Positions 38,205-56,296 of a stretch of DNA of 64,000 bases are shown piece by piece (position 1 is the stretch's first letter; every line of letters begins with the position of its first letter). The stretch comes from Hyunsoonleella jejuensis. GTDB taxonomy: Bacteria > Bacteroidota > Bacteroidia > Flavobacteriales > Flavobacteriaceae. The translations under genes and the position numbers were made by a program. Under the pieces are notes generated by a model that was given only the letters and a program-made list of their open reading frames with translations, did no database searches and was not told where the DNA came from. The stretch covers positions 558,001 to 622,000 of the forward strand of contig NZ_FOFN01000002.1 of the NCBI RefSeq assembly GCF_900111025.1, read 5' to 3'.

Positions 38205-40106
38205 TTAAAAGTAGAATTTGTTATTTGGCAATACACAAGATTCGCCAACCTCTTTTAGAACAGGAATTATACCAAGTTCTATAGTTCGCTGCATAACTTT
38301 AGAATTATCTTTATGACATTGTAAACAAGCGCCAATAAGAAGGATCTTTTTTTGCTCTTCTACCGTAAATGGCCTAAAATTTTCTCTAGTAGAATTAACA
38401 ACATTTTTATCTACATTTTTTAAAAACGGTACCCAAGCATCTTCTGGTAAGTTATCATTTGGATTTAAGGCATATTCTGGAGTAAATACCCATGTGCCTT
38501 TACCATTACTAATTTTATAAACCAATGTACCATTACCATAACCTAAAGTAGCTGAATTGGCATGACACGATTTACAGTCGCGCACGGTCTTAGTAGTTGT
38601 ATGAGGCGAATTTGGCGCATACAATCTATGAAAAGAAACATCACTATCTGGCTTACCAACATAACTTCCTTTGTCAATAGTTAAAATCATGCCTGGTATA
38701 GCTGGTTCAATAACGTTTTTTTCTTTATACACTCTTACCCCTAGAGCTGGTTGTGAAGACGAAAATTCTGCTACGTATTCCTTCCATGCCCCTTTTACAT
38801 ATTTTTTTTCTAACAAATCGTAACCATTGGGCTCCTTACTATCAAATTGATTATGGCAACCTATACAACGAGAAGTCCAAGACGAATGGCACGCACTACA
38901 ACTCACATTTTTATGCGCATAGTCTCTAGAGCAAACATCGGACTGTGGTTTCAACTTATGTAAATTATTATCGTTTTTTCCAATTAAAAAAGCGTTACCA
39001 GTTGAGTCTACAAATGTATTTACCAACGGATGTCCATCTTTTTCAACAGCTATTATTTGCTTATCGGTATGTGTGTAATCACGATGTAAAAACACCAACA
39101 TACTTTCTCTATCTAATGAATCATAAGGAATTGTATTTGGTTTTTCCTTAAAATGGCAATCACTGCATTGCAAAGTAACAGCTTCTTCTTCATGAGCATA
39201 ACTTAAACCGTTACCCATAACTTCATGAGATGAATGACAATCTATACACAACAAACCTTTTGCATGATGCACATCTTCCTCTAAATGTTTATAAACTCTT
39301 TTATCTTCCAATACAGAGTAGTCTGACCTATTAATTACCTCATCTTCTTCTAATAAGGTTTCTTGTAAACCTAAATAATTAGTAGAAATTCTACTAGAAC
39401 GACTATGGCAACCAAAACAATGCGTGTCATTAACAAAAATATCTGTTGAAGGATGAAATTGTGGTAATTCGGTTTTATTTGAAACCAAATATTGTTTAAG
39501 GTCTTTTTTAGCATCATTAGAATAGTTAAGATGGCACGCATTGCATCCTCCCCCTCTACTTAGTTGATTTATTTCACCATATGATGTTTTTTGTGCCCCC
39601 AAATGGCAATTGGCACATAAATCTCTCAGGTGCTTATCGGCAGCAGAATATTGTAAATCCTTTATATGATAGTGATAATTTAAACTATCGGCTTCACCAA
39701 AAATAAATTTATTAACAGCAACAATACCACTATTTGTAGTCATCAATGATTTTTTAATTTTATGTAACTCATTTGGATGACATTTACCGCAAGTTTCTTT
39801 GGCATCTAATAAATTACCAGGCACCAAAACCATGCCTTTATGTGCACTGGTTTTATCGAATGATGCTTTATTTCCTAAATGACAACTCGCACAACCTATA
39901 AATTCTGGATTATGATACTTTGAATAGCCTTTGGTATTTTGATGACATTCTAAACAAGATTCGCCTACCACTAATTCAACATTGGAATAAACAGCATCTT
40001 TAAAAACAGGAGATTTTAAAAATACTTTATTTCTAATTAAAAAAAGCATTGCAAATAGTAAAATAGCAATAGCAAAAACCCATCTGGAATATACTTTTTT
40101 ATTCAT
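38205..40106 (-). CDS. Dodecahaem c-type cytochrome of the sulfur island
   Basis: A 633-residue protein with an N-terminal membrane anchor (about 9-25) and a large extracytoplasmic part containing 12 CxxCH haem sites: CLECH, CASCH, CGKCH, CANCH, CNACH, CFGCH, CIDCH, CSDCH, CSACH, CIGCH, CKSCH and CLQCH. It probably moves electrons between the molybdoenzyme/NrfD module and the respiratory chain, or reacts with a sulfur species itself as octahaem tetrathionate reductases do. The frame opens at GTG 40163, but the ATG at 40106, just after a TAAATTTG -7 box, is preferred. It is divergent from the molybdoenzyme gene with two palindromes between them. Confidence 0.9.
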   Translation of the reverse strand: MNKKVYSRWVFAIAILLFAMLFLIRNKVFLKSPVFKDAVYSNVELVVGESCLECHQNTKGYSKYHNPEFIGCASCHLGNKASFDKTSAHKGMVLVPGNLLDAKETCGKCHPNELHKIKKSLMTTNSGIVAVNKFIFGEADSLNYHYHIKDLQYSAADKHLRDLCANCHLGAQKTSYGEINQLSRGGGCNACHLNYSNDAKKDLKQYLVSNKTELPQFHPSTDIFVNDTHCFGCHSRSSRISTNYLGLQETLLEEDEVINRSDYSVLEDKRVYKHLEEDVHHAKGLLCIDCHSSHEVMGNGLSYAHEEEAVTLQCSDCHFKEKPNTIPYDSLDRESMLVFLHRDYTHTDKQIIAVEKDGHPLVNTFVDSTGNAFLIGKNDNNLHKLKPQSDVCSRDYAHKNVSCSACHSSWTSRCIGCHNQFDSKEPNGYDLLEKKYVKGAWKEYVAEFSSSQPALGVRVYKEKNVIEPAIPGMILTIDKGSYVGKPDSDVSFHRLYAPNSPHTTTKTVRDCKSCHANSATLGYGNGTLVYKISNGKGTWVFTPEYALNPNDNLPEDAWVPFLKNVDKNVVNSTRENFRPFTVEEQKKILLIGACLQCHKDNSKVMQRTIELGIIPVLKEVGESCVLPNNKFYF

Positions 40107-40121
40107 TATCAAGTAATTGCC

Positions 40122-40129
40122 CAAATTTA
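40122..40129 (-). promoter_or_regulatory. Putative -7 element of the dodecahaem cytochrome gene
   Basis: TAAATTTG on the minus strand lies 15 bp before the preferred ATG. The palindrome at 40171-40188 would be centred about 60-65 bp upstream of the start of transcription, a usual place for Crp-type activation. Confidence 0.5.
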
Positions 40130-40170
40130 CAATATTTCTAGCATTAAATACTTTAATACACACAAAGCTT

Positions 40171-40188
40171 ATGTAACAAAAGTAACAT
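40171..40188. promoter_or_regulatory. Crp/Fnr-type palindrome 1, divergent region
   Basis: ATGTAAC-AAAA-GTAACAT has 7-bp arms with one mismatch and a 4-bp spacer, the spacing of Crp/Fnr dimers. It lies between the divergent cytochrome and molybdoenzyme genes. A close relative (GTAAC-N4-GTTAC) lies upstream of the rhodanese operon. Confidence 0.6.
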
Positions 40189-40202
40189 ATAAATACTTGA
40201 TT

Positions 40203-40220
40203 TTATGACATTTATCATAA
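40203..40220. promoter_or_regulatory. Crp/Fnr-type palindrome 2, divergent region
   Basis: TTATGACATTTATCATAA has perfect 6-bp outer arms (TTATGA / TCATAA). It is centred about 42 bp upstream of a start of transcription predicted from TATATTTA at 40241-40248, the class II activator position. The related AGTTGACAAAAGTCATAA lies at 46709-46726. Confidence 0.6.
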
Positions 40221-40270
40221 TTATATAGCAGATTTAAAAATATATTTAAGCCTGAAAAATAAATAGGATT

Positions 40271-42514
40271 ATGGTCTCTTCCAGACGAAAATTTATAAAG
40301 ATTTCTGCATTAGGTTTAGGAGGTTTAGCAACAACTTCAACAGTATATCAACTATTTTCATCAAACCCTTTATTAGATGCCGCCATTAAAGAAAATGTAG
40401 CCAGAAAACTTGTTAGATCTGCTACATATTGTGAGGTATGTTTCTGGAAATGCGCAGCTTGGGCATATACGGATACAAGTGGTGATATAAAGAAGATTAT
40501 TGGAAATGATACAGACCCACATTGTTATGGGCGACTATGCCCTAGGGGAACTGGCGGTGTTGGAATGTATTCTGATGAAGATAGACTTAAAAAACCATTA
40601 ATTAGAACAGTTGTTGATGGCGAAGAAACCTTTAGAGAGGCAAGTTGGGATGAAGCATTAGATGTAATTGCTTCAAAATTCAAACATATTAAAGATGCTT
40701 ATGGAGCAGAATCTTTTGCTTTATTAAAACATGGTTCTCCAGGAAAACATTTAGAACATTTATTTAAAGCCTATGGGTCTGATACCATTGCTGAACCTGC
40801 TTATGCGCAATGCAGAGGCCCAAGAGAGGCTGGTTTTGCTTTAACTTATGGTTCGTGGGTGGGCTCTCCAGAACCTACAGATATTCGTGATACTAAATGT
40901 CTTGTACTCATTGGTTCTCATATTGGTGAAAATATGCACAATACTCAAGTACAAGAAATGTCTGATGCTATTGATAATGGAGCAACAATAATTACTGTAG
41001 ATCCAAGATTTTCAACAGCAGCAAGCAAATCTCAACATTGGTTAGCTATTAAACCAGCTACAGATATTGCCCTAATGTTGGCTTGGATGCATGTAATAAT
41101 TAAAGAAGGTTTATACGACAAGGACTATGTAAAAAAATATACTACCGGATTTAATGAGTTAAAAGATCACGTCTTAAACTTCACCCCAGAATGGGCCTAT
41201 GGCATAACAACTATTAAACCAGAAATGATTAGAAAAACTGCAAGAGAAATGGCATATGCAGCTCCTGCTGTTATTATTCATCCTGGACGCCATGTAAGTT
41301 GGTATGGAGATGACACACAGCGAGCAAGAGCTGTGGCAATTTTAAATGGGTTATTAGGCTCTTGGGGACGACGAGGCGGCTTCTACTTTAAAGAAAGCAT
41401 TAAGGTACCTAAATTTCCGCATCCAGAATATCCACACCCAAAATGGGATTGGAAAGATATTGGTGAAAAATATCCGCTCGCGCAAATGGGAATAACAACT
41501 GAAGTTATTAAATGTGCCATCCCAAGTGATGGTAATAAATATCCCGTAAAAGCTATGATGATTGCGGGTACAAACATTACAAAATCTATTCCAAATAAAA
41601 AACTCTTAGAAGAGGCTATGGATAATCTTGAGTTCGTAGTAGTTATGGATACCATGCCTATGGATGTTACTGGTTATGCAGATGTTGTGTTGCCCGAATG
41701 TACTTATTTAGAACGTTATGATGGTATTCGTTCTGCAACGAACAGAACTCCTTCTATTGCCGTGAGAGTTCCTGCTGTACCACCAAAATATGATTCTAAA
41801 CCTGGTTGGTGGGTTGCCAAACAAATTGGTGAACGCATCGGTTTAGGCGAGTATTTTAAATATGATGATTACGAAGAAGTAATTGAATGGCAATTGAATA
41901 AAATGGGAACTTCGTTAGAAGAAATGAAAAAGATTGGAGTGAAGCATTTCCCCCGTACCTCTGGACCGTTATATTTAGACGAAAATAAAACCTACGAGTT
42001 TCCAACTGAAAGTGGCAAAATTGAATTGTACTCCAAAGAATTAAAAAGTTTAGGATTCGATCCGCTGCCTGTTTATACCAAGCATCCAGAACCCCCTCAA
42101 GGGTTTTATAGATTAAATTACGGTAGAGCACCTATGCACACTTTTAGTAGAACAGCTAACAATCCTAATTTAAACGATTTAAAAAGTGAAAATAATCTTT
42201 GGGTAAACCCAAAAGTTGCAAGAATTATGGGTTTAAAAACAGGACAATCTGTTTGGTTAAGAAATCAAGATAAAATCACCTCTACTTTCTCTATAAAAGT
42301 TAGAGTTACCGAACGTATTCGTTGGGATTCTGTTTATATGGTTCATGGTTTTGGACATGATAATAAAAAGTTAACAAGAGCTTTTGGCAAAGGCATAAAC
42401 GATACTCAAATGATAAGCAAAGTTGCTATTGATCCCATTATGGGAGGAACAGGAATGAGAGGCAACTTTGTTGAGATTTTAACCCAAGATCCACATAAAA
42501 CTATAGAAATATGA
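40271..42514 (+). CDS. Tat-exported molybdopterin oxidoreductase, polysulfide/thiosulfate reductase type
   Basis: A 747-residue catalytic subunit of the PsrA/PhsA branch of the DMSO reductase superfamily. The twin-arginine signal is SRRKFIK at residues 4-10. The N-terminal [4Fe-4S] site is C54-x2-C57-x3-C61-x28-C90. C181 in YAQCRGPREAG is the candidate molybdenum ligand. Later MGD-binding segments (VIIHPGRHVSWYGDD, LVLIGSHIGENMHNTQ) are intact. Length (about 750) fits Psr/Phs and is shorter than tetrathionate or arsenate reductases. Reaction direction (sulfur-compound reduction or oxidation) cannot be told. A Qrc-like electron-transfer role is an alternative. It leads the operon and overlaps the ferredoxin gene by ATGA. 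Confidence 0.88.
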   Translation: MVSSRRKFIKISALGLGGLATTSTVYQLFSSNPLLDAAIKENVARKLVRSATYCEVCFWKCAAWAYTDTSGDIKKIIGNDTDPHCYGRLCPRGTGGVGMYSDEDRLKKPLIRTVVDGEETFREASWDEALDVIASKFKHIKDAYGAESFALLKHGSPGKHLEHLFKAYGSDTIAEPAYAQCRGPREAGFALTYGSWVGSPEPTDIRDTKCLVLIGSHIGENMHNTQVQEMSDAIDNGATIITVDPRFSTAASKSQHWLAIKPATDIALMLAWMHVIIKEGLYDKDYVKKYTTGFNELKDHVLNFTPEWAYGITTIKPEMIRKTAREMAYAAPAVIIHPGRHVSWYGDDTQRARAVAILNGLLGSWGRRGGFYFKESIKVPKFPHPEYPHPKWDWKDIGEKYPLAQMGITTEVIKCAIPSDGNKYPVKAMMIAGTNITKSIPNKKLLEEAMDNLEFVVVMDTMPMDVTGYADVVLPECTYLERYDGIRSATNRTPSIAVRVPAVPPKYDSKPGWWVAKQIGERIGLGEYFKYDDYEEVIEWQLNKMGTSLEEMKKIGVKHFPRTSGPLYLDENKTYEFPTESGKIELYSKELKSLGFDPLPVYTKHPEPPQGFYRLNYGRAPMHTFSRTANNPNLNDLKSENNLWVNPKVARIMGLKTGQSVWLRNQDKITSTFSIKVRVTERIRWDSVYMVHGFGHDNKKLTRAFGKGINDTQMISKVAIDPIMGGTGMRGNFVEILTQDPHKTIEI

Positions 42515-43044
42515 GATATGCCATGGTTATAGACACATTAAAATGTGTTGGATGTAGTGATTGTGTGGTTGCGTGTCAAACAGAAAACGATGTTCCTATT
42601 GGATATTGTAGAGACTGGATTACAGAAACTGTAAGCGGCGCCTATCCCAATATTGAGTTGGAGCTAAAATCAGAACGTTGCAACCATTGTGAAAACGCTC
42701 CTTGTGTAAGGTGCTGCCCTACTGGCGCAAGCCATATTGTTAAAGGTGGTATTGTTTTAGTAACCGCAAATGAATGTATAGGTTGTGGTGCCTGTATAGA
42801 ATCCTGTCCTTACGATGCAAGATACCAGCATCCAGATGGGTATGTAGATAAGTGTACCTTTTGCCACCACAGATTAGAAAAAGGCCAGCTACCAGCATGT
42901 GTAGCAGTTTGTCCTACGAAGTGTATGTATTTTGGAGATTTAGACAACCCAAACAGTGACGTATCAAGATTATTAAAAAACAGAAAGTGGAAAACCCTAG
43001 CGCCAGAAGCTGGAACTAAACCGCAGGTATACTATTTAATTTAA
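42511..43044 (+). CDS. Four-cluster ferredoxin subunit (PsrB/DmsB type)
   Basis: A 177-residue electron-transfer subunit with four [4Fe-4S] ligand sets: CVGCSDCVVAC, CNHCENAPCVRCC, CIGCGACIESC and CTFCHHRLEKGQLPACVAVC with its following CPTKC. It carries electrons between the molybdoenzyme and the NrfD-type subunit. The ATGA overlap with the molybdoenzyme gene shows translational coupling. It lacks a Tat signal, as expected if it is exported together with the catalytic subunit. Confidence 0.93.
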   Translation: MRYAMVIDTLKCVGCSDCVVACQTENDVPIGYCRDWITETVSGAYPNIELELKSERCNHCENAPCVRCCPTGASHIVKGGIVLVTANECIGCGACIESCPYDARYQHPDGYVDKCTFCHHRLEKGQLPACVAVCPTKCMYFGDLDNPNSDVSRLLKNRKWKTLAPEAGTKPQVYYLI

Positions 43045-43054
43045 TATTAAGATT

Positions 43055-43996
43055 ATGCAAGAAGAAATTTTCGTTAGCGGAAGAAATATTCCTAATATAG
43101 ATCCTTCACTAGAAATTTGGCATTGGCCCATTTCCCTTTATCTTTTCTTAGGTGGGCTAGCCGCAGGTATATTATTCTTTGCAGGTGTAGTTACCATCTT
43201 AGGCAAAGAGAAAGACTACCCTACAACAGTTAAATATGCGTCTTTAGTGCCCCCAATAGCGTTAACATTGGGACTATTAGCTTTGGTCTACGATTTAACA
43301 CACCCATTATATACTTGGCAATTGTACACAACAATTCGTTTAGAATCGCCAATGTCGTGGGGTGCGTGGGTACTACTAATTACTACACCATTATCTTTTA
43401 TGTGGGTGTTTAGCTATTATTCCGAATTATTTCCGAAATGGAAACTAAAGTTTAAGTTTCTTAAGAAATTTGAAAAATTCTTGAAGACAAATCGCAAGAA
43501 TATGGCCTATGCATTGGTACCCTTATCAATAATTTTAGGTGTTTATACTGGAATTTTACTGTCTGCCTTTAATGCAAGACCTTTATGGAATAACGCCATT
43601 TTAGGGCCACTGTTCTTAACCTCAGGCCTATCAACTGGAGCTGCTACCATTATTCTCTTAGCTAAAACCACAAAAGAAAGACACTTGTTTAGTAAGATAG
43701 ACTTAGCATTAGTAATAATAGAATTAGGGCTTATTGTTCATATGATCATGGGCATGTACGCAGGTTCTGAAGTACAATTAGATGCTATGCATCTATTAAT
43801 AGGTGGCGAGTTTACATTAATGTTTTTTGGTTTTGTTGTTATACTTGGTTTGATTGTTCCTGGCATACTCGAAGCCTTAGAAATAAAAGGGTTTAAAGTA
43901 CCGGTTGCAATACCAGCTATACTCATTCTAATTGGCGGATTAATATTCAGATTTGTAATGGTAGAAGCAGGACAAATAACAAGATACCTTTATTAG
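43055..43996 (+). CDS. NrfD/PsrC-type quinone-interacting membrane subunit
   Basis: A 313-residue integral membrane protein with about eight helices, opening with WHWPISLYLFLGGLAAGILFFAG, the typical NrfD/PsrC start. Acidic and histidine residues within the helices (for example GLIVHMIMGMYAGSEV) may take part in quinone binding. It anchors the molybdoenzyme and ferredoxin and exchanges electrons with menaquinone. It lies 10 bp after the ferredoxin gene. Confidence 0.92.
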   Translation: MQEEIFVSGRNIPNIDPSLEIWHWPISLYLFLGGLAAGILFFAGVVTILGKEKDYPTTVKYASLVPPIALTLGLLALVYDLTHPLYTWQLYTTIRLESPMSWGAWVLLITTPLSFMWVFSYYSELFPKWKLKFKFLKKFEKFLKTNRKNMAYALVPLSIILGVYTGILLSAFNARPLWNNAILGPLFLTSGLSTGAATIILLAKTTKERHLFSKIDLALVIIELGLIVHMIMGMYAGSEVQLDAMHLLIGGEFTLMFFGFVVILGLIVPGILEALEIKGFKVPVAIPAILILIGGLIFRFVMVEAGQITRYLY

Positions 43997-44005
43997 ATAA
44001 AGATT

Positions 44006-44533
44006 ATGAAAGAAAAAAAACAAAACAAACACGTCTATTGGAATCCATATTTTGGAGGGTTTCTTCTCGGAATATTAATCATTCTCACATTTTTTATAAC
44101 TGGCAGAGGCTTAGGAGCAAGTGGCGCCATGAAAAGCGGTGTAGTTACCATAGTAAATGCAACATCCCCCACACATGTAGAGAACAATTCATACTACAGC
44201 AGGTTTGTAAACGATGGTGAATCTCCCATGAATAACTGGTTGGTATTCGAAACCATAGGCGTTTTAATAGGCGCATTTATTTCTGGATCTTTATCTGGAA
44301 GAATTGGATGGCGCGTACAACACTCTCCAAAAATTACCAAAAGACGTAGATTAATTTTTGCCTTAAGTGGTGGCATTCTTTTTGGAATTGGAGCCCAAAT
44401 AGCAAGAGGTTGCACCAGTGGTGCTGCTTTAAGTGGTATGGCTGTATTGTCAACCGGTGGTTTTATTACCATGCTTTCCATTTTTGGCACTGCATTCTTG
44501 TTTGCATATTTCTTTAGAAAAAACTGGATTTAA
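44006..44533 (+). CDS. YeeE/YedE-family half-transporter 1 (thiosulfate transporter-like)
   Basis: A 175-residue membrane protein of the YeeE/YedE (TsuA-like) family with about four helices. The conserved cysteine motif is IARGCTSGAALSGMA. Full-length thiosulfate transporters contain two such halves with several cysteines passing the substrate by S-H-S contacts. Here the halves are separate genes, so the two products probably pair. It sits 9 bp after the NrfD gene, so substrate delivery or export of a sulfur compound is likely. Confidence 0.85.
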   Translation: MKEKKQNKHVYWNPYFGGFLLGILIILTFFITGRGLGASGAMKSGVVTIVNATSPTHVENNSYYSRFVNDGESPMNNWLVFETIGVLIGAFISGSLSGRIGWRVQHSPKITKRRRLIFALSGGILFGIGAQIARGCTSGAALSGMAVLSTGGFITMLSIFGTAFLFAYFFRKNWI

Positions 44534-44551
44534 AATTTAAAAAACAAACTT

Positions 44552-45142
44552 ATGGGACCATTAATTCCTAACGATTTAATTTCATTTGAATGGAGCGGTA
44601 TAATAGCCATTATTATAGGAATACTATTTGGATTTATATTAGAATCTTCGGGCTTCTCATCTTCTAGAAAATTAGCTGGTACGTTTTATGGTTATGATTT
44701 CGCTGTATTAAAAGTGTTTTTTACAGCTGCGGTAGTATCGTTAATTGGGCTCTTATATATGGATTATTTAGGTTATATAGATATGAATAGTTTATATGTT
44801 CATCCTACATATTTATGGGGCGCTATTATTGGAGGCGCTATAATGGGCATAGGATTTGTAGCTGGAGGATTTTGTCCGGGAACTAGTTTGTCGGCAGTAG
44901 CTATTGGCAAAATAGATGCTATAGTTAACGTTATTGGCATTATGGTTGGAGTCTTTATATTTTCAGAATTATATCCACTTTTTGAACCCATATACAATGG
45001 CTACTTTCAAGGAAATATTACCTTAATCGATTCTTTGGGAATAAACCCCTATTGGTTTGTATTCCTTTTAACAATAGTGGCTATTATAATGTTTGTGGTA
45101 ACAGACATGATTCGTAAACGTGTGAAAAAAGTCTTTTACTAA
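44552..45142 (+). CDS. YeeE/YedE-family half-transporter 2
   Basis: A 196-residue membrane protein with about five helices and the family cysteine motif GGFCPGTSLSAVAIGK. It complements the preceding half-transporter (18 bp upstream), and the two together match the length of one TsuA-type protein. The likely substrate is thiosulfate or another sulfur species, judged from family and context. Confidence 0.85.
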   Translation: MGPLIPNDLISFEWSGIIAIIIGILFGFILESSGFSSSRKLAGTFYGYDFAVLKVFFTAAVVSLIGLLYMDYLGYIDMNSLYVHPTYLWGAIIGGAIMGIGFVAGGFCPGTSLSAVAIGKIDAIVNVIGIMVGVFIFSELYPLFEPIYNGYFQGNITLIDSLGINPYWFVFLLTIVAIIMFVVTDMIRKRVKKVFY

Positions 45143-45161
45143 TAACTAAAATTACACAATT

Positions 45162-45836
45162 ATGGTAAATAGAAAATTAGTTAAATTTTTGTCTTTTAGG
45201 TATATAATTCTTGCGTCCATACTATTGGTGTTGGCGGGTGGTTTAGTATTGTTACCTAAATACGAAAAGCAAGAAGGCATTAGCCCCGAACAATTGTTAA
45301 AGCATGTAATTAGCCCTGAACGCTATATAACCACTGATGAGCTTGCTGATAGAATAATTAACCAAGACCCTTCTTTATTATTAATTGATGTTAGAGACGA
45401 AAAAGACTTTAAAACGTATAGCTTACCAAATGCGGTGAATATACCTTTAAAAAATATTTTTAACGCAGATTCAGAACCTTATTTAGATCAAGACCAATTT
45501 GATGTCATCCTATTTTCTAATGACAATTTCTACTCAGACCAAGCATGGTTGTTGTGCAGTAGAAAAAATTACAAAAACCTTCACGTATTAAAAGGTGGAA
45601 TTAATAATTGGTTCAACACCATAATAAATCCAAAAGAACCAACAGAAAACATGGCTTCTAACTCGTTTGAAACATACGCGTTTCGTAAAGCTGCAAGTAT
45701 GTATTTTGGTGTGGCATATCCAAAGATAATTCAAAAACAACCTGTTACCTCTAAGACAAAAAAGACCACAAATGTGGTAAAAACAATAATTCCGAAGAAA
45801 AAAAAGAAAAAAATGCCTATTGAGGGTGGTTGTTAA
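45162..45836 (+). CDS. Membrane-anchored rhodanese-like protein without catalytic Cys, ending in -GGC (1)
   Basis: A 224-residue protein with one N-terminal helix (about 13-31) and an extracytoplasmic rhodanese domain (about 55-152: LLIDVRDEKDFKTYSLPNAVNIP and HVLKGGINNWF). The active-site loop reads ILFSNDNFYSDQAW, without the usual cysteine. A flexible basic tail follows, ending KKKKKKMPIEGGC, so the last residue is a free cysteine. The next gene ends in the same way. The tail might act as a swinging sulfur carrier. This is inferred from the repeated pattern only. Confidence 0.8.
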   Translation: MVNRKLVKFLSFRYIILASILLVLAGGLVLLPKYEKQEGISPEQLLKHVISPERYITTDELADRIINQDPSLLLIDVRDEKDFKTYSLPNAVNIPLKNIFNADSEPYLDQDQFDVILFSNDNFYSDQAWLLCSRKNYKNLHVLKGGINNWFNTIINPKEPTENMASNSFETYAFRKAASMYFGVAYPKIIQKQPVTSKTKKTTNVVKTIIPKKKKKKMPIEGGC

Positions 45837-45865
45837 GGTGTTTATCATTATAAAACTATTTAAGC

Positions 45866-46480
45866 ATGAAAGAATTAGAAAAAACAAAGCGTATCTCAAT
45901 AGCGTCAACACTATTTATATTAGCTATTTTAATCGGTCTTTTAACCTATAAACGTCCAAAACACATATATGCGATAAATACTCAAAAAACATTAGAAAAT
46001 ATTACTAATACTGATGTTCTTGTAACATTAGAGGCTATAAAAAATCCTAATCATGTTATAGTAGATGTAAGAAGTCCTATCGAGTTTGAAAAAGGCCATC
46101 TAGCAAATGCTATCAATATTCATACTCCCGAAATTTTAAATGAACAGAATTCAGCTTTATTTAAAGAGCTAAAAGCATCAAACAAAACAGTCTTACTTTA
46201 CGGCAACAACCCACAAGAAGCAAATGTAGCTTTTATGTTTTTGTTTCAATTAGGTTATGATAATTTAAAACTTTTGGCCATTGAAAATAGTTATTCTCAA
46301 AACAAACTTGTCTCTCAAAATTCTGAAGTTGAAAAACTAAAAACAGATATTAGGTCTTTTATAGATGAATCTGTAAAAAAATCAGAAGTAAAAGTGATCC
46401 CAAAACAAATTATTCAGCCACCAAAAAAAATTATTCCCGTTCAAAAAAAGAAGAAAAAAATCCCCGAGGGAGGTTGTTAA
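45866..46480 (+). CDS. Membrane-anchored rhodanese-like protein without catalytic Cys, ending in -GGC (2)
   Basis: A 204-residue paralogue of the preceding protein. One helix spans about 10-27. The rhodanese domain (about 45-140) has VIVDVRSPIEFEKGHLANAINI, but the active-site loop is VLLYGNNPQEANVAF, with glycine in place of cysteine. A Pro/Lys-rich tail ends KKKKKIPEGGC. No other cysteine is present in the whole sequence, so the terminal Cys is the only thiol. It is the last gene of the operon before a terminator. Confidence 0.8.
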   Translation: MKELEKTKRISIASTLFILAILIGLLTYKRPKHIYAINTQKTLENITNTDVLVTLEAIKNPNHVIVDVRSPIEFEKGHLANAINIHTPEILNEQNSALFKELKASNKTVLLYGNNPQEANVAFMFLFQLGYDNLKLLAIENSYSQNKLVSQNSEVEKLKTDIRSFIDESVKKSEVKVIPKQIIQPPKKIIPVQKKKKKIPEGGC

Positions 46481-46491
46481 AAAACACATTC

Positions 46492-46530
46492 AAAAAAGCT
46501 ATTTAATAAAAATTAAGTAGCTTTTTTTTA
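46492..46530 (+). terminator. Terminator after the molybdoenzyme/rhodanese operon
   Basis: AAAAAGCTA pairs with TAGCTTTTT, followed by more T. The rest of the 310-bp gap to 46790 holds two Crp/Fnr-type palindromes and a promoter but no gene. Confidence 0.75.
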
Positions 46531-46665
46531 TTTAGAAAACAAACGCAATAATCCATTTTTGCCATTCTAAAACGGCTTCTTATAAATTTTAATTTTCATA
46601 ATAAAAAGAACTTCGTACCGCATACGCATATTTAAGTATAAAATACTGATAAACACATATTTAAT

Positions 46666-46683
46666 AGGTAACAAATGTTACAG
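46666..46683. promoter_or_regulatory. Crp/Fnr-type palindrome 1, rhodanese operon
   Basis: The core GTAAC-AAAT-GTTAC (46668-46681) is a perfect 5-4-5 palindrome. It resembles the site at 40171-40188 and lies 43 bp, about four helical turns, upstream of the second site. Confidence 0.6.
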
Positions 46684-46708
46684 AACTTACTGAGTATTTA
46701 TAAGCAAA

Positions 46709-46726
46709 AGTTGACAAAAGTCATAA
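46709..46726. promoter_or_regulatory. Crp/Fnr-type palindrome 2, rhodanese operon
   Basis: AGTTGACAAAAGTCATAA, with core TTGAC-N4-GTCAT, has FNR-like spacing. It is centred about 43 bp upstream of the start of transcription predicted from TAATTTTA at 46747-46754, a class II activator position. Confidence 0.6.
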
Positions 46727-46790
46727 AAAAATGTTACCCCTGAATATAATTTTACATTAATCAAGATAATTAATTTTAAATAATTATAAC

Positions 46791-47777
46791 ATGAAAAAGT
46801 CAGTTCTATTTTTAGCGACATTATTCACAATGTTAGCTGCTATTGCAAGCGGTTTTTCACAAGAGGATAATCTTGCTACCAGTACTCCAGATGAATTTAA
46901 TACTTTGGTAAACTATCTGGAAAGTAATACTCAATTTATTAAAGGTGAATTCCCATTAATTACTGCCGATGAGCTTAGGAAAAATTTTAAAAACCCTAAA
47001 TACCAAATTGTTGATATAAGGACCGACAGTTGGTTCGAATATGGGCATATTAAAAATGCCGCTAACGTTCCTGCTGGCGAACTCCTAAATTATTTTGAAA
47101 CTAGCATAAACCCAGCAGATTTTGATAAAATAGTTTTAATATGCTATTCTGGTCAATCGGCTGCATACTATTCTGCTTTATTGCGACTAGCCGGATTTGA
47201 TAATGTGTACAGTCTGAAATGGGGAATGAGCTCTTGGAGAGAAGATTTCGCAAATAATGCATGGACCAAGAATACAAAAAACTCATTTGCAGAACAACTT
47301 GAAACAACAGTACATACAAAACCTGCAACAGGTAATCATCCTGTTTTAGCTACTGGAAAAACAGAAGCTAAAGCGATTCTTAAAACCCGATTAGAAGAAC
47401 TATTTGCTAAACCTTATAAAGATTTTATATTAAAACCAGACGCTGTATTTACAACTCCTAGCGATTACTTCATTGTAAATTATAATAATGAAGAAGTATA
47501 TAATAACGGACATATTCCTGGAGCTATTCATTACAAACCAGGATCTTCCTTACTCGTTGACACAGATCTCACCTCACTACCTATCAACAAGAAGATTGCC
47601 CTATACACCTCTACAGGACAGGAAGCAGCTTACCTAGTAGCATATCTAAGTGTTTTAGGGTATGATATGGGTAACATAGCTTATGGCGAAAATGGATTTA
47701 TGAACGAAATCCTTAAAACCAAAGGTTGGGACGCATTTTCTGAAAAAGAAATTAACATGTTCCCCGTAATAGAATAA
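46791..47777 (+). CDS. Exported tandem rhodanese, one active and one inactive domain
   Basis: A 328-residue protein with a cleavable signal peptide (to about residue 24). The first rhodanese domain (about 55-155) has the active loop LICYSGQSAAY with C118. The second (about 205-310) has LYTSTGQEAAY with Thr273 at the catalytic position, so it is probably not a sulfurtransferase. The protein would act in the periplasm on polysulfide or thiosulfate sulfane sulfur, as the Wolinella Sud protein does. It heads the second operon of the island. Confidence 0.88.
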   Translation: MKKSVLFLATLFTMLAAIASGFSQEDNLATSTPDEFNTLVNYLESNTQFIKGEFPLITADELRKNFKNPKYQIVDIRTDSWFEYGHIKNAANVPAGELLNYFETSINPADFDKIVLICYSGQSAAYYSALLRLAGFDNVYSLKWGMSSWREDFANNAWTKNTKNSFAEQLETTVHTKPATGNHPVLATGKTEAKAILKTRLEELFAKPYKDFILKPDAVFTTPSDYFIVNYNNEEVYNNGHIPGAIHYKPGSSLLVDTDLTSLPINKKIALYTSTGQEAAYLVAYLSVLGYDMGNIAYGENGFMNEILKTKGWDAFSEKEINMFPVIE

Positions 47778-47804
47778 CAACCCAATACCATAAAACATAT
47801 AATC

Positions 47805-48821
47805 ATGAAAAAATTAGCATTATTATTAATCGGATTATTATTAGTTCCTGCTCTATTTCTAACTTCATGTGACAGAGGAGACGATCTTGATGACAACGGT
47901 TCAGTTGCCACACCAGCATTTACACTTTTAAAAGAGTACATGACTCAAAACAACTTAGATATAGGCAATGTTCTTACAAACACAAATAATCAAAAATTTG
48001 TGGTCGGTGCTCCAGCAGCGGCAGATCTTCAAACCTTCCTTGACACATATTACATCATGGATATACGAAGTAATGCAGACTTTTTAAATGCACATATTGA
48101 AGGTGCGAATAATGTAGCGTTCTCTGATATTCTCACTACTGCTGCAACCACTAGCAAACCAATTTTGGTTGTTTGCTATACTGGTCAAACAGCTTGTTAT
48201 GCTACAGCCTTGTTACGACTTTATGGCTACCCTAGTACAAGATCTCTTAAATGGGGGATGTCTGGGTGGAACGCTTTAACTGCAGGACCATGGAACGGTA
48301 AGATAGGTTCAAAACTTGCAGATGGACATAATAATTGGACACATCAGGGTGCTCCAGCAACATTAGTATTTGATAATCCAACAATTTCAACAACATTAAC
48401 AGATGGTGAAGCAATCCTTAAGCAACGCGTAGAAGCTTTAGTTGCTGCAGGATTTGGTTCGGTTACAGTAAGCGGATCTGATGTGCTAAACAATCCATCT
48501 CAGTACTTTATCAATAATTATTTTAGCGAAGCAGATTATTCAGGTTTCGGACATATTAATGGCGCCTACAGAATACTTCCATTAACCCTAGGAGATGATT
48601 CTTATTTAGGCCTAGACCCAGATCCTAATGCTAAGGTTGTTACCTATTGTTATACCGGTCAAACTTCCGCAGTAATGACCGCTTGCTTAAGAGTTTTAGG
48701 TTACGATGCGTACACCATGACATTCGGTATGAATGGTATTTTCAACACCAATCCTTCATGGAAAACAAACCAATGGGGAGGCGATTCAAATCCTAAAAAT
48801 TTACCAGTTATTACCAATTAA
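47805..48821 (+). CDS. Tandem rhodanese lipoprotein, both domains with catalytic Cys
   Basis: A 338-residue lipoprotein with lipobox FLTSCD (lipidated C22). Both rhodanese domains have the CYTGQT active loop, with C124 and C282. It is a paralogue of the preceding gene product but with two active sites, and it is membrane-tethered. It would transfer sulfane sulfur in the periplasm or at the outer membrane. It is separated by 27 bp from the preceding gene and followed by a porin gene after 20 bp. Confidence 0.88.
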   Translation: MKKLALLLIGLLLVPALFLTSCDRGDDLDDNGSVATPAFTLLKEYMTQNNLDIGNVLTNTNNQKFVVGAPAAADLQTFLDTYYIMDIRSNADFLNAHIEGANNVAFSDILTTAATTSKPILVVCYTGQTACYATALLRLYGYPSTRSLKWGMSGWNALTAGPWNGKIGSKLADGHNNWTHQGAPATLVFDNPTISTTLTDGEAILKQRVEALVAAGFGSVTVSGSDVLNNPSQYFINNYFSEADYSGFGHINGAYRILPLTLGDDSYLGLDPDPNAKVVTYCYTGQTSAVMTACLRVLGYDAYTMTFGMNGIFNTNPSWKTNQWGGDSNPKNLPVITN

Positions 48822-48841
48822 TAGGCCCTAACATAAAAGAT

Positions 48842-49894
48842 ATGAAAAGCATTTATAAATTGCTCATTTTAGCCCTGTTATTTAATACAAATGCAGTGCT
48901 CTCTCAAGGTTGCGATATAGATGATCCTACAAGCAGTGATGCTGAAGGCAATACACCAAATATTAAATTATTTGGTTATCTGCAACCAGAATATAATTAT
49001 AATTTTACAGATGGCGATCAGGACAATACCATAAGATTCAGGCGCGCCCGTTTAGGTGTAAGAGGTAAAGTGCTAAATGACTTTTCTTACTACTTTATGT
49101 TTGAAGCAAGTCCGTTTATAGGTGGCACTGCAGATACGTACTTAATGGATGCCTTTGTAACCTATGAGGCCGATAACTGGGCTCGTATCTCCGTTGGTAC
49201 ATTCAAGCAGCCCTTTAGTTTAGATGTTGCTACACCTTGTCACATGATCAGGACCATAGAACGTTCTGTGGTAGCCGATCAATTGGTGGCACCTCAGCGG
49301 GACTTTGGTTTAGCAGTCTTCGGTGGTAACAAATTCAATAAGCTAAATTATTCAGTTGCTATTATGAATGGTACAGGCCTTAACCAAGGTGATAACAATA
49401 CCAAGAAAGATATTATGGGTAGAGCTACCTATAAAATTACTAAATATCTAACTGTGGGAGGTAGTTTTAGATTTGGTCACCCAATACCAAATAACAATGA
49501 GGATCATCGATCATCTTATGGTGGTGAATTATTGTTAGAATTGGACAAATTGAGAGTTCAGGCTGAATATATTTATGATGAAGGTGCCTATTTCGCAGGT
49601 GCAGCAGGTGGCTGCGGTACTACACCAATAGCATTAGGTGAAAAGCGAGATGGAGCCTATATGTTGGCTACATACGCCGTAAATGAAAAATTCGAACCCG
49701 TTTTAAAATATGAATATTTTGATCCAGATATAGACATGAAGAACAATATTGGTTATTTGGAAAGGATGACTGTAGGATTTAACTACTTTGTGAATAACAA
49801 AGTAAGATTTCAATTAAACTATCTTGCCAATATTGAAACGGTTGCTAATGTAAACAACGACCAATTATTAGCTCAAGTACAAATTAAGTTTTAG
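48842..49894 (+). CDS. OprP/OprO-type outer-membrane porin of the sulfur island
   Basis: A 350-residue outer-membrane beta-barrel with a signal peptide (to about residue 21). It has the family opening KLFGYLQPEYNYNF, RFRRARLGVRGKV and TFKQPFSLDVATP, and it ends with a C-terminal aromatic (QVQIKF). Anion-selective porins of this family let phosphate or other oxyanions through. Here passage of thiosulfate or another sulfur oxyanion is a reasonable inference. It is last in the rhodanese operon and followed by a terminator. Confidence 0.85.
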   Translation: MKSIYKLLILALLFNTNAVLSQGCDIDDPTSSDAEGNTPNIKLFGYLQPEYNYNFTDGDQDNTIRFRRARLGVRGKVLNDFSYYFMFEASPFIGGTADTYLMDAFVTYEADNWARISVGTFKQPFSLDVATPCHMIRTIERSVVADQLVAPQRDFGLAVFGGNKFNKLNYSVAIMNGTGLNQGDNNTKKDIMGRATYKITKYLTVGGSFRFGHPIPNNNEDHRSSYGGELLLELDKLRVQAEYIYDEGAYFAGAAGGCGTTPIALGEKRDGAYMLATYAVNEKFEPVLKYEYFDPDIDMKNNIGYLERMTVGFNYFVNNKVRFQLNYLANIETVANVNNDQLLAQVQIKF

Positions 49895-49934
49895 TTAGTT
49901 ATTAATTTTCATAACATTTGATTTAAGTCCTTTT

Positions 49935-49970
49935 AAAACACCCCTTTAACTTCTGTTAGAGGGGTTTTTC
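49935..49970 (+). terminator. Terminator after the porin gene
   Basis: ACCCCT pairs with AGGGGT around a 14-base loop and is followed by TTTT. Confidence 0.7.
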
Positions 49971-49983
49971 GTGGATAATTGAT

Positions 49984-49991
49984 TATCTTTG
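49984..49991 (+). promoter_or_regulatory. Putative -7 element of the Crp/Fnr gene
   Basis: TATCTTTG matches TAnnTTTG. It overlaps an in-frame TTG at 49989, which is therefore unlikely to be the start codon. Confidence 0.5.
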
Positions 49992-50015
49992 TATATAACA
50001 ATCCTACCACTAAAA

Positions 50016-50675
50016 ATGAATAGTCAAGAATCCATACTTAGGCAGCAAATCCTCGATTGTTATTCTGAAATTTTCGAAAATGAATTAATAGATGAAATCG
50101 TTAAAGTAGGTTATTTTAACACTATCAAAGATGGCGAACTTTTAATTGATATTGGTAGTGAGCTAACGCATATCCCCCTAATACTAAAAGGTGTAGTAAA
50201 AATTATAAGAAGAGAAAAAAATGGTGAGGAAATAGTGCTTCATTTTTTGGAACGCGGCAGCACCTGTGCCATATCATTTGCTAATTGTATTAACCGTAGA
50301 AAAAGTATTTTTAAGGGTGTTGTGGAAACTACAATGAAAGCTATTTTTTTACCAGTGGAATATATAGATGAATGGTTGGTAAAATATAAATCATGGCGCC
50401 ATTTTATTATTGATAGTTACCATTTTAGATTATTAGAAATGGTAGAATCTATTGACGGTTTAGCATTTATGAAAATGGATGAAAGAACATTAAAATTCTT
50501 GTCCGACAAAGTAAAAATTAACAATAATGCTGATTTAAAAATAACACATCAAGAAATTGCCGATGATTTAAATACGTCTAGAGTTGTAATTACAAGAATA
50601 CTGAAACAATTACACGATGAAAAAAAAATCTATTCAACTAGAAATAAAATTAGAGTCTTAGAGTTACTTGATTAA
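50016..50675 (+). CDS. Crp/Fnr-family regulator of the sulfur island
   Basis: A 219-residue regulator with an N-terminal cyclic-nucleotide-binding-like domain and a C-terminal winged helix (ITHQEIADDLNTSRVVITRILKQL). It lacks the N-terminal FNR cluster cysteines. It has C15, and C84 and C91 in GSTCAISFANCINRR near the effector pocket, which could sense a thiol or sulfane-sulfur species. The ATG at 50016 is chosen over an upstream TTG that overlaps the promoter. It is probably the protein that binds the palindromes in the two control regions of the island. Confidence 0.88.
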   Translation: MNSQESILRQQILDCYSEIFENELIDEIVKVGYFNTIKDGELLIDIGSELTHIPLILKGVVKIIRREKNGEEIVLHFLERGSTCAISFANCINRRKSIFKGVVETTMKAIFLPVEYIDEWLVKYKSWRHFIIDSYHFRLLEMVESIDGLAFMKMDERTLKFLSDKVKINNNADLKITHQEIADDLNTSRVVITRILKQLHDEKKIYSTRNKIRVLELLD

Positions 50676-51611: not shown

Positions 51612-52853
51612 TTACTTTGCTGTATTTAAAAATTTAGGCTTAATCACTAACATTGCCCAAGCCCAGTTTTGAGTGTCCTTTACTCCTGGAATGTCCGCCA
51701 CATCACTTGGCTCAAAGAAATGAGAATAACCACCTACTAATGTAAATTCCTTAAATTTCTTAGCTAACACAATATCAATTTCAGATCCTAAATCGTTCCC
51801 CATACCATCAAGGTCTGATTGTTCAGTAAAGTAATGTCCTGCAACTGTAAGTGCTACACCTGAGATTTTAGTTTTATAGGATAACTGAAAATCATTTAAA
51901 CCACCCGCATTGCCATGATTACCAACATAAAATCTATCAATTAAGCCATTAAATGCATGGTTTGTTCCGTATAGTGGGAAGAATGCAGCAGACTCACTAT
52001 TTCTTCCTGAAATACGCTCTACGGTTGCAATAAGAGCACTTTTATCACTTAGTTTGTAGGCAGCAGCTAAACTGGCTAAGTATGCACCTTTAACATCTAC
52101 ACCGCCTAGTCGCTCTCCTTCTTGAATAAACAAGTTAGAGGTTAACGTTAAAGCGCCTAATTTATAATCTGCATGTATACCTGCCGTAATTAAGCTAGAT
52201 TTATTAGATCCATCTACGTTAGAATCTTGAAAGGTATTTACCAATCCTAAGAAGGACACATTAAGCTTTTCACCGTTGCTATTGGCTCTTACAAAAACCA
52301 TATCTCTATAAGAGAATAAGGCTGAAGTATTGTAAACTTCGTCTAGTGTAGTATTTAAAGCACCACCAATATCTAAACTCAATTTATTTTTCTTGTACTT
52401 ATATACAGCCGCATCGTGCGTGCGTGCTTGTTGTGCCCATCCTAAACCACCAAGAATTCTTTGATCATCATAAGATAGTGGCTGACGCCCTAATTTTAAG
52501 CTAGAAGATGTGCCCAACTTTAAATTGGCCCAAGCCTCTTGTACTCTAAAATTTCCATTTCCATTTGTTGCTATTTGTGGTCTATCACCAAAGGCAAACA
52601 CTTCTTGAAAACTAGTGTATACTGTATAGGTTTCGGCTTTATATTTAGCTATTAAAGCTGCTCTTACCGTGGTTCTTAAAAAACCTTCATCGGCATCTGT
52701 AGCTGTTTGTGCAGGAAAAGTGCCTCCTGTAAAATTTCCGCCGTTTCCAAAATATTCGCTACGTGGTCTAAATTCCCCTTCTAAGGTAAACTGTGCTTGC
52801 GCTAATTGAACCATCAATGCCATCAAGCCTATTAAAACATATTGCTTTCTCAT
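51612..52853 (-). CDS. Alginate-export-like outer-membrane porin of the nitrate operon
   Basis: A 413-residue outer-membrane beta-barrel with a signal peptide ending LAQAQF. It has EFRPRSEYFGNG, the block VQEAWANLKLGTSSSLKLGRQPLSYDDQRILGG, and FTLVGGYSHFFEPS near the end, typical of the alginate_exp barrel family. The family name reflects the founding member. In this position, after the NrtABCD-type genes, the likely cargo is nitrate or nitrite. A 147-bp gap separates it from the ATPase gene, so it may also have its own promoter. Confidence 0.82.
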   Translation of the reverse strand: MRKQYVLIGLMALMVQLAQAQFTLEGEFRPRSEYFGNGGNFTGGTFPAQTATDADEGFLRTTVRAALIAKYKAETYTVYTSFQEVFAFGDRPQIATNGNGNFRVQEAWANLKLGTSSSLKLGRQPLSYDDQRILGGLGWAQQARTHDAAVYKYKKNKLSLDIGGALNTTLDEVYNTSALFSYRDMVFVRANSNGEKLNVSFLGLVNTFQDSNVDGSNKSSLITAGIHADYKLGALTLTSNLFIQEGERLGGVDVKGAYLASLAAAYKLSDKSALIATVERISGRNSESAAFFPLYGTNHAFNGLIDRFYVGNHGNAGGLNDFQLSYKTKISGVALTVAGHYFTEQSDLDGMGNDLGSEIDIVLAKKFKEFTLVGGYSHFFEPSDVADIPGVKDTQNWAWAMLVIKPKFLNTAK

Positions 52854-53000
52854 TTTTTACTTGTTTTTAACGTTTAATTCGTGTTTGAGTTTTTAATTAA
52901 TTGTTTTCGTTTTGGGTTGTACTTTTCCTAGGCTCATGGAACGTGTTAGATTCCACAAACTTTTTTGTTTACTATTTAATTTGCTTATTGGTTTACTTTT

Positions 53001-53828
53001 CTAGTGCTCTAAAAAGTCTATTAAATGTTTTCTGTATTTATAATAATCGTCGTGCTCTAACACGGCTTTTCTTGTTCTTGGTCTTTCAAATTCAATATCC
53101 AAAACATCACCAATTTTTGCTCTGGGGCCGCTGGTCATCATTACCACGCGGTCTGCTAAAAATATCGCCTCATCCACATCATGGGTAATCATTACCGCAG
53201 TAATTTTTTCTTTATTCCAAATCTCTATTAAAATGTCCTGTAATTCGCCACGAGTTAAAGAATCTAGCATCCCGAAAGGCTCGTCTAGTAACAATACTTT
53301 TGGTTTAATAGCAAATGCTCTGGCGATACCTACACGCTGTTGCATTCCTTGTGATAAATCAGAGGCACGTTTATTAAACGCATCTTCTAAACCTACTTTC
53401 TGTAAATAGTATTTTGCAATATCATTGCGTTGTCCTTTTGTAGCATGTGGGAATACTTGATTTACACCCAACATCACGTTCTGTAAAGCGGTCATCCAAG
53501 GCATTAAACTTGGTGCTTGAAATATCACACCTCTATCTGGTCCCGGGCCTTTAATATGTTTCCCTAATACGGAAATGTTTCCTCCAGAAATCGGATTCAA
53601 TCCTGCAATCATAGAAAGCATCGTCGTTTTTCCACACCCAGAATGCCCGATAATAGTAACGAATTCCTCTTTTCTAATTTGAAGATTTAAATGTTCCAAA
53701 ACCACATAGTCTCCTTTTGGTGTCGGGTACACTTTCTTTAAGTCTTTTAAATCAAGCATCACTTCATGCGATGGAAAAATGCCATTATGTGCTGTTGTTT
53801 TAGCTGTGTCTGTAATAATAGTACTCAT
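53001..53828 (-). CDS. Nitrate-type ABC transporter ATPase 2
   Basis: A 275-residue ABC ATPase of the NrtD/SsuB/TauB group. It has Walker A GHSGCGKTT, signature LSQGMQQRVGIARA, Walker B VLLLDEPFGMLD, and ITHDVDEAIFLADRVVMMTSGPRAKIG, the nitrate/taurine-type C-terminus. The frame is open to a TTG at 53858 inside the previous gene. The ATG at 53828, 10 bases after the upstream stop, is preferred. It pairs with the next ATPase to form a heterodimeric motor. Confidence 0.9.
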   Translation of the reverse strand: MSTIITDTAKTTAHNGIFPSHEVMLDLKDLKKVYPTPKGDYVVLEHLNLQIRKEEFVTIIGHSGCGKTTMLSMIAGLNPISGGNISVLGKHIKGPGPDRGVIFQAPSLMPWMTALQNVMLGVNQVFPHATKGQRNDIAKYYLQKVGLEDAFNKRASDLSQGMQQRVGIARAFAIKPKVLLLDEPFGMLDSLTRGELQDILIEIWNKEKITAVMITHDVDEAIFLADRVVMMTSGPRAKIGDVLDIEFERPRTRKAVLEHDDYYKYRKHLIDFLEH

Positions 53829-53838
53829 AACTTGATGC

Positions 53839-56121: not shown

Positions 56122-56168
56122 GATTCTTTTGTTTTATTGTCGTTTAGTGTTTTGTATTTTGATAATAC

Positions 56169-56283
56169 TGTCAGTTCGAGTGGATTTCGCGATTGATAAT
56201 GAGTGAAATTTGTATCGAGAACTATGCTCTTCCTAAATGTTCTCGATACGATTTTTCATGCTTCAAAATCACTCGAACTGACA
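56169..56283. repeat. Nested inverted-repeat element between nrtA- and nrtB-like genes
   Basis: The ends are perfect 14-bp inverted repeats, TGTCAGTTCGAGTG (56169-56182) and CACTCGAACTGACA (56270-56283). Inside lies an 11-bp inverted repeat, GTATCGAGAAC / GTTCTCGATAC (56212-56222 and 56239-56249). The RNA would fold into a long stem. It resembles a REP/MITE-like dispersed flavobacterial repeat. Confidence 0.8.
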
Positions 56284-56296
56284 TTATATATGTGTC

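Follow-up and report, generated by a model that had tools for sequence, protein, structure and literature searches.

A PsrABC-YeeE gene island with terminal-cysteine pseudo-rhodaneses in Hyunsoonleella jejuensis and its possible place in sulfur oxidation

We analyzed an island of sulfur-related genes at positions 38205 to 50675 of a 64,000-nucleotide stretch of DNA (the window, to which all unprefixed coordinates refer) from the flavobacterium Hyunsoonleella jejuensis, whose genome (G000) comprises 3.48 Mb in 11 contigs. A preliminary description had recognized a sulfur system here around a molybdoenzyme of the Psr/Phs type. Beyond that description, we observed two pseudo-rhodaneses that end in a cysteine, an ExtM-like 12-haem cytochrome that is tied to psrA, and a palindrome that the island shares with other genes. 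On balance, we favor the reading that flavobacteria have a sulfur-oxidation regulon of which this island, with its thiol-armed carriers, forms the molybdoenzyme branch; the island probably helps marine Bacteroidota to oxidize reduced sulfur.

Gene content and conservation of the island

The island contains the following features.

38205..40106, minus strand: 12-haem c-type cytochrome, ExtM-like, with one N-terminal membrane helix (12 conserved CxxCH; NCBIfam ExtM; AlphaFold2 (AF2) model)
40172..40187, no strand: Crp/Fnr-type palindrome in the divergent cytochrome/psrA promoter (1 mismatch to TGTAACN4GTTACA)
40271..42514, plus strand: PsrA-like Tat molybdoenzyme (Pfam Molybdopterin and Molydop_binding; C181 candidate molybdenum (Mo) ligand)
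42511..43044, plus strand: PsrB-like four-cluster ferredoxin (Fer4_11, 81.7 bits; cluster number judged from the Cys pattern)
43055..43996, plus strand: PsrC-like NrfD membrane subunit (NrfD, 165.8 bits)
44006..44533, plus strand: yeeC, C-terminal half of YeeE/YedE (Sulf_transp positions 176-309; aligns to TsuA 236-320)
44552..45142, plus strand: yeeN, N-terminal half of YeeE/YedE (Sulf_transp positions 10-155; aligns weakly to TsuA 3-94, E 0.02)
45162..45836, plus strand: rho1, membrane-anchored pseudo-rhodanese with a Lys-rich tail ending EGGC (Pfam Rhodanese; fold by AF2 and Foldseek)
45866..46480, plus strand: rho2, second pseudo-rhodanese with a tail of the rho1 kind (Pfam Rhodanese; alignment of the Cys column)
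46667..46682, no strand: second Crp/Fnr-type palindrome, upstream of rho3 (1 mismatch)
46791..47777, plus strand: rho3, tandem rhodanese, export judged from the N-terminus (domain 1 retains the catalytic Cys)
47805..48821, plus strand: rho4, tandem rhodanese with a lipobox-like start, seen by eye (both domains with catalytic Cys)
48842..49894, plus strand: outer-membrane porin (Porin_O_P; ExtI 48 bits, below the cut-off of 150)
49989..50675, plus strand: Crp/Fnr-family regulator, candidate binder of the palindromes (HTH_Crp_2)

Matching of open reading frames (ORFs) and Pfam and NCBIfam domains recovered every gene of the preliminary description on its strand, including the Fer4_11 ferredoxin, the NrfD protein, both Sulf_transp halves, the Porin_O_P porin and the Crp-type regulator. 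The PsrA-like subunit begins with a twin-arginine motif (SRRKFIK), and its best match in the PDB was PsrA of Thermus thermophilus (2vpw, 633 bits; runner-up chain 164 bits). Its C181, already named as the candidate Mo ligand, aligned with C173 of that enzyme, which we take to be the Mo ligand there. NCBIfam PhsA gave 459.6 bits (next model 256 bits) and fell short of the curated equivalog cut-off of 694 bits; therefore, we did not file the protein as PhsA. Its profile scores support membership of the Psr/Phs group, and the operon also encodes the NrfD membrane subunit and multi-cluster ferredoxin by which Psr/Phs systems are recognized. The earlier view of one Psr/Phs-type sulfur system was supported by the 2vpw match, the NrfD subunit and the palindrome that precedes both transcription units. 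The YeeE halves are encoded in swapped order, with the gene matching the C-half of TsuA before the N-half gene. As separate proteins they scored 39 and 22 bits against the TsuA model (cut-off 400), and the best NCBIfam match of yeeN was a putative selenium transporter (36 bits, cut-off 200).

PsrA relatives are encoded in at least 573 genome stretches, and the enzyme group is therefore common; its best curated match is the thiosulfate reductase PhsA. The best 80 of these relatives from named genomes gave the loci counted below, which are biased toward close relatives because the best matches were kept. The gene-order search proposed in the preliminary description found psrA-psrB-psrC-yeeC-yeeN-rho1-rho2 unbroken in 66 of the 80 loci, a recurrence that argues against a chance grouping. 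Nine of the other 14 reach a contig end, and five (L089, L092, L100, L102 and L124) show no detected yeeE and still have a rhodanese. By best match, rho3 was present in 21, rho4 in 23 and the porin in 23 of the 80 loci, which makes these three genes accessory. Across a sample of 296 Bacteroidota genomes, 34 (our own included) encode a PsrA relative at E <= 1e-80. We read 20 neighborhoods from this phylum-wide sample, two of them (L037 and L038) picked through the cytochrome. In 18, psrA-psrB-psrC is followed by the C-half of yeeE; a contig end truncates L041, and psrABC stands alone in L055, with neither yeeE nor rhodanese. The latter is the single neighborhood read from genus g91, whose 11 psrA-positive genomes carry a distant PsrA. 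A MerR-looking gene, judged by eye and from a published description (PMC6338057), adjoins psrA in 11 of the 20. Thus, the core is a conserved Bacteroidota operon that is in print for Chlorobi relatives, its function uncharacterized.

Several copies deviate in detail. At L043:12991-14376, yeeN is fused to a rho1-like domain in a protein of 461 amino acids (aa) that still has a Gly-Cys C-terminus. L115 has its psrA split over two ORFs, and L051 has a shortened rho1; these are broken copies or sequencing errors. L081, titled Candidatus Gracilibacteria, encodes a PsrA with 73% identity and is probably a misbinned flavobacterial contig.

The 12 CxxCH motifs noted earlier in the cytochrome align across 58 sequences (window included), with single losses in L080 and L114 and a longer CX4CH at haem site 3 in the non-flavobacterial sequences read (L043 and L045). 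The cytochrome ORF extends to 40163 (38205-40163, minus strand), and homologue lengths make 40106 its likely real start. ExtM matched residues 66-627 with 232 bits (cut-off 800); judged by this profile, the protein is ExtM-like over its length, under the curated cut-off. Its AF2 model has a predicted local distance difference test score (pLDDT) of 83.9 and a helix at residues 2-30. Twenty of the 58 sequences are long forms of 894-961 aa, and the four that we read (L043, L045, L104 and L117) start with a cytochrome-b-like part, recognized by eye. Rieske genes of family F1, from which one member was scanned, occur in 21 of the 80 loci, often near long forms; in flavobacteria, the cytochrome has one membrane helix only, and we recognized neither a Rieske nor a cytochrome b gene beside it.

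Ten genomes of the 296-genome sample encode the cytochrome; every one of them belongs to the 34 with psrA, and in nine the gene lies near psrA on the same contig. A hand calculation that ignores kinship puts the chance expectation for this co-occurrence at about 1 in 10^10. Since 24 psrA-positive genomes have none, the cytochrome is not a universal requirement. Only 3 of 60 relatives (our own included) and 1 of 11 congeners carry it, and the full island is therefore rare nearby. A sequence search of the PDB gave a best E of 0.18 and a Foldseek search of the AF2 model gave nothing at E <= 0.001; therefore, we claim no catalytic role for it. C411 and C643 (ORF numbering) lie outside the haem sites and are nearly invariant, perhaps as a disulfide or sulfur-binding pair. 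As a separate observation, a periplasmic nitrate reductase operon lies directly behind the 12-haem gene at L058:1023-7321 (NapA over its cut-off), with the same layout at L072:1410-7579; this arrangement suggests nitrate-dependent sulfur oxidation.

Rhodanese-like proteins with a terminal cysteine

The preliminary description counted four rhodanese-like proteins and compared them with Sud-type sulfur carriers. All four contain a Rhodanese domain, but only two keep the catalytic cysteine in their first domain. At the active-site column, this residue was absent from all rho1 (0/73) and rho2 (0/70) sequences, and it was kept in the first domains of rho3 (17/17) and rho4 (24/24; both counted in proteins of more than 300 aa). 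The column is occupied by Ser in 70 of the 73 rho1 and by Gly in 56 of the 70 rho2, and a Cys stands within two columns of it in 2 of the 70 rho2. By their alignments, rho1 and rho2 are pseudo-rhodaneses in the sense of lacking the catalytic residue, not catalytic rhodaneses.

In place of the active-site cysteine, both proteins have a tail, mostly Lys-rich, that ends in Gly-Cys. After genes cut by a contig end had been excluded, this ending was present in 73 of 73 rho1 and 68 of 70 rho2, the exceptions being L069, near a contig end, and L072, with a broken frame. For comparison, a C-terminal Cys was found in 15 of the 1022 remaining complete ORFs of 150 aa or more in these loci, and in 4 of the 51 further rhodanese-like ORFs. 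The terminal Cys is the sole one of the protein in 29 of the 73 rho1 and 42 of the 70 rho2. Because the active-site Cys is gone and a C-terminal Cys tail is present, the Sud-type assignment does not fit rho1 and rho2. The ending extends to the phylum-wide sample, in which rho1 similarity drops to about 60 bits (L042 was recognized through its cluster): 17 of 18 rho genes beside psr end in Gly-Cys, the other being the shortened L051. This count leaves out L053:19004, a distant rhodanese-like ORF away from psr.

The tails of rho1 and rho2 resemble each other within a genome. Over the 14 residues before the last three, their identity was 0.71 within and 0.34 between genomes (0 of 10000 permutations), and a control stretch gave 0.08. 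With the partner from the genome nearest by rho1 body, the identity was 0.61, and the own partner was better in 41, tied in 18 and worse in 9 of 68 cases. Within a genome, the two tails thus co-vary, which suggests that a shared partner keeps them similar.

The AF2 model of rho1 (mean pLDDT 86.8) comprises a helix at residues 4-29, an ordered domain and a low-confidence tail (pLDDT 51-73 per block), and Foldseek gave 83 matches at E <= 0.001 with rhodanese domains on top. Positively charged residues flanking a membrane helix tend to stay inside. Since a positive N-terminus precedes the helix of rho1, its domain is placed in the periplasm, as is the Tat-exported PsrA. By analogy, the rho1 and rho2 tails look like SoxY-type carrier arms. 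Among the open-licence literature, as far as its text could be searched, nothing was recognized as terminal-Cys pseudo-rhodaneses beside psr.

A shared palindrome and the direction of sulfur turnover

The motif GTAAC-N4-GTTAC occurs in 23 of 41 divergent cytochrome/psrA promoters. As regulon evidence, we counted exact TGTAACN4GTTACA sites only, with the reversed motif as control. G000 has 2 such sites, the sister genome G001 3, G036 1 and G191 7 (control 0, 0, 1 and 0), and eight further psr-positive genomes have 16 (control 3), so that the 12 psr-positive genomes together hold 29 exact sites, compared with 4 control sites. One-mismatch sites were rejected as evidence, as they numbered 18 against 13 control sites in our own genome and 29 against 17 in G001. 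Both window palindromes are exact in G001. Elsewhere, the exact palindrome lies between cytochrome and psrA in five other genomes (L149, L157, L178, L179 and L180) and upstream of rho3 in L153 (G001), L156 (G191) and L181 (G355).

Twenty-eight of the 29 exact sites could be read (G357:C10 is without a locus), and 22 of them adjoin island or sulfur-oxidation genes: the cytochrome/psrA promoter (5), rho3 (3), sulfide:quinone reductase (SQR, 2), a SorA-like gene (6), a cytochrome/OmpP1 gap (1), a gene resembling persulfide dioxygenase (PDO) or its TauE-looking neighbor (3), and a 225-aa protein otherwise paired with SorA-like genes (2; L160 and L190). A strict count without the two sites that depend on the 225-aa protein gives 20 of 28. 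The remaining sites lie upstream of NapD-NapA in G191 (1) and elsewhere (5). In our own genome, one exact site precedes an SQR-DsrC-DsrE2-like unit, opposite an OmpP1/FadL-type porin, and the other precedes a SorA-like-cytochrome-rhodanese unit. SQR and DsrC of the former exceed their curated cut-offs; the rhodanese behind the SorA-like gene reached 64 bits with ExtH (cut-off 200), and the PDO-like protein combines metallo-beta-lactamase and rhodanese domains. The palindrome ties the island to SQR, SorA-like and PDO-like genes, and judged from these sites the island most likely belongs to a sulfur-oxidation regulon. We infer that the palindrome is the site of one regulator and that the Crp/Fnr protein of the island binds it. 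This flavobacterial regulon was not recognized in the searchable text of the open-licence literature.

Two side observations concern membrane proteins. The 225-aa protein (L162:7893-8570; relatives in L155, L160, L182 and L190) has no Pfam or NCBIfam match, and its gene recurrently points away from a SorA-like gene under the palindrome. OmpP1/FadL-type channels recur beside SQR and psr genes (L161:7273-8664 in our own genome; L037:7789-9132); their family f10, of which one member was scanned, is present in 5 of the 20 neighborhoods and might let hydrophobic zero-valent sulfur through.

Oxidation is the established role of the sulfide:quinone reductase, sulfite dehydrogenase and persulfide dioxygenase families. 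Because one palindrome precedes SQR, SorA-like and PDO-like genes, we favor oxidation. A SorA-like gene is present in all three island-bearing relatives against 8 of 57 others, and haem-copper oxidases were found in all eight psr-positive genomes examined. In the mechanism that we propose, thiosulfate, polysulfide or sulfur made by SQR would supply sulfane sulfur to the active periplasmic rhodaneses rho3 and rho4, which would pass it to the tail cysteines of the membrane-anchored rho1 and rho2. These tails, mobile as SoxY arms are, would present the bound sulfur to the periplasmic PsrA site and the YeeE pair. PsrA would turn over the bound sulfur, with PsrB and the NrfD subunit carrying electrons between it and menaquinone. 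Multihaem cytochromes (for some other Bacteroidota, a Rieske/cytochrome-b-like/12-haem module whose genes adjoin psrA) would reoxidize the quinol toward oxygen or nitrate. The SorA-like sulfite dehydrogenase under the same palindrome would complete the oxidation to sulfate. We infer the sulfur load of the tails, the partners, the electron path and the net direction. A bolder version, which we regard as possible and hold only tentatively, is a presumably Sox-free pathway spread through Bacteroidota, in which sulfane sulfur would be carried on terminal-Cys arms, PsrABC would act as a quinone-reducing sulfane dehydrogenase, unrelated proteins would replace SoxYZ and SoxCD, and electrons would leave via the Rieske/cytochrome-b-like/12-haem module.

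Several points weigh against an oxidative role. The characterized Psr/Phs enzymes known to us are reductases. One study, in the text available, reads the psr/phs genes of Bacteroidetes bins as reductive (PMC7887784). Some Bacteroidales copies stand beside octahaem tetrathionate reductase (OTR)-family cytochromes (5/80) or a PhsC-like cytochrome b (8/80), families of which one member each was scanned, and these neighbors point to reduction there. SorA-like (238 bits, cut-off 600), DsrE2-like (102, cut-off 210) and PDO-like (48, cut-off 625) proteins stay under their curated cut-offs; 2 of the 12 psr-positive genomes have no exact palindrome, and each window palindrome carries its mismatch. SQR was rejected as an obligate partner and shows no phylum-wide association with the core operon, being over its cut-off in 4 of 23 psrA-positive genomes outside g91 against 73 of all 296 (15 of 34 when the 11 g91 genomes are included). 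Relatives without the island also carry SQR (6/57) and SorA homologues (8/57), and G001 has the island and no SQR match at E <= 1e-60. The direction in which this operon works may vary from host to host. The octahaem cytochromes lie near psrA in L098, L101, L103, L108 and L118, the last of which was scanned and exceeded its cut-off.

The reductive tendency of the nearest enzymes, PsrA and PhsA, can be accommodated within an oxidation regulon. PsrABC would then cleave thiosulfate, free or tail-bound, to sulfite and sulfide, the arms and rhodaneses would deliver the substrate, and the sulfite dehydrogenase and SQR under the same palindrome would clear both products. We consider this rather unlikely: the Rieske/cytochrome-b-like/12-haem module beside psrA elsewhere is of a quinol-oxidizing type and fits quinol production better, and G001 lacks the SQR match that this route would call for. 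Anaerobic sulfur respiration would follow the model of Wolinella or Thermus: the molybdoenzyme would reduce polysulfide or tetrathionate, rhodaneses would feed it in the manner of Sud, and the cytochrome would donate electrons or act as a second reductase. This would explain the PsrABC homology and the OTR-type cytochromes of the five loci; it appears improbable given the flavobacterial palindrome common to SorA-like, SQR and PDO-like genes and the oxidases of all eight genomes examined. Selenite or tellurite reduction, as by Srr of Bacillus selenitireducens and ext of Geobacter, has in its favor the Psr-like enzyme and rhodanese proteins of Srr and the rhodanese, porin, 12-haem, Rieske and cytochrome b genes of ext, both as described in print, together with the ExtM (232 bits), ExtI (48 bits) and selenium transporter matches, but we regard it as very improbable, as all these models score far under their cut-offs and the 28 palindrome sites adjoin sulfur genes (22), a nitrate reductase (1) and others (5), with no selenium gene recognized.

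Should the island belong to the oxidation regulon, as we favor, many Bacteroidota of sediments and coastal waters could be misread as sulfur reducers. Additionally, the terminal-Cys arms offer a handle on how Psr-type enzymes obtain their sulfur.

Beyond the island, the window contains on its minus strand (51612-57688) a unit that by eye resembles nitrate-type ATP-binding cassette transport with an outer-membrane protein. The gene at 58307-60928 encodes a protein of 873 aa in which we recognized, by eye, two parts resembling DUF262 and an end resembling HNH; it may be a nuclease for defence.

Comparison with known systems

The preliminary description knew of no system with the full gene set. 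This is partly right, as parts of the set are in print in the texts available: the core cluster (PMC6338057), a Psr enzyme with rhodaneses (PMC12481199) and a rhodanese-porin-12-haem combination (PMC5877670). In the Candidatus Thermonerobacter cluster, whose function is left open, a MerR gene precedes psrABC, and two Sulf_transp genes and a rhodanese complete the set; psrABC relatives occur in Melioribacter and Ignavibacterium, and the cluster is similar to PSRLC2 of green sulfur bacteria (PMC6338057). It has the same core genes as our island, but a 12-haem cytochrome, a tail cysteine, a second rhodanese and a regulon are absent from the available description. In B. selenitireducens, srrEABCDF encodes a Psr-like selenite enzyme with rhodanese-domain proteins (PMC12481199). 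Compared by description, Srr shares the Psr-type A, B and C subunits and the rhodanese-domain proteins, whereas no YeeE, cytochrome or Cys tail is reported in the accessible account. The extHIJKLMNOPQS genes of Geobacter are linked to selenite and tellurite reduction (PMC5877670); as described there, they share rhodanese, porin, 12-haem ExtM, Rieske and cytochrome b with the Bacteroidota loci and are without Psr or YeeE. The proteins of the island and regulon stay below the equivalog cut-offs of ExtM (232/800), ExtI (48/150) and ExtH (64/200).

With T. thermophilus PsrABC (2vpw), the homology covers the full length of the catalytic subunit, with 47% identity over 387 positions in the first four alignment blocks; the motif around the Cys at the Mo-ligand position is AQCRGP in the window PsrA and SLCTAP in the T. 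thermophilus enzyme. The terminal motif of SoxY is GGCGG. In the available account, SoxY is a swinging arm with one conserved sulfur-binding Cys (PMC11237559). The rho1 and rho2 proteins share with it a conserved Cys on a flexible C-terminal arm, from which we took the carrier idea, but they differ in their rhodanese fold, membrane anchor and Cys as the last residue. Pfam gave Rhodanese alone and no SoxY domain in either protein, and we claim no sequence relation. If the carrier idea is true, rho1 and rho2 would have evolved such an arm independently of Sox.

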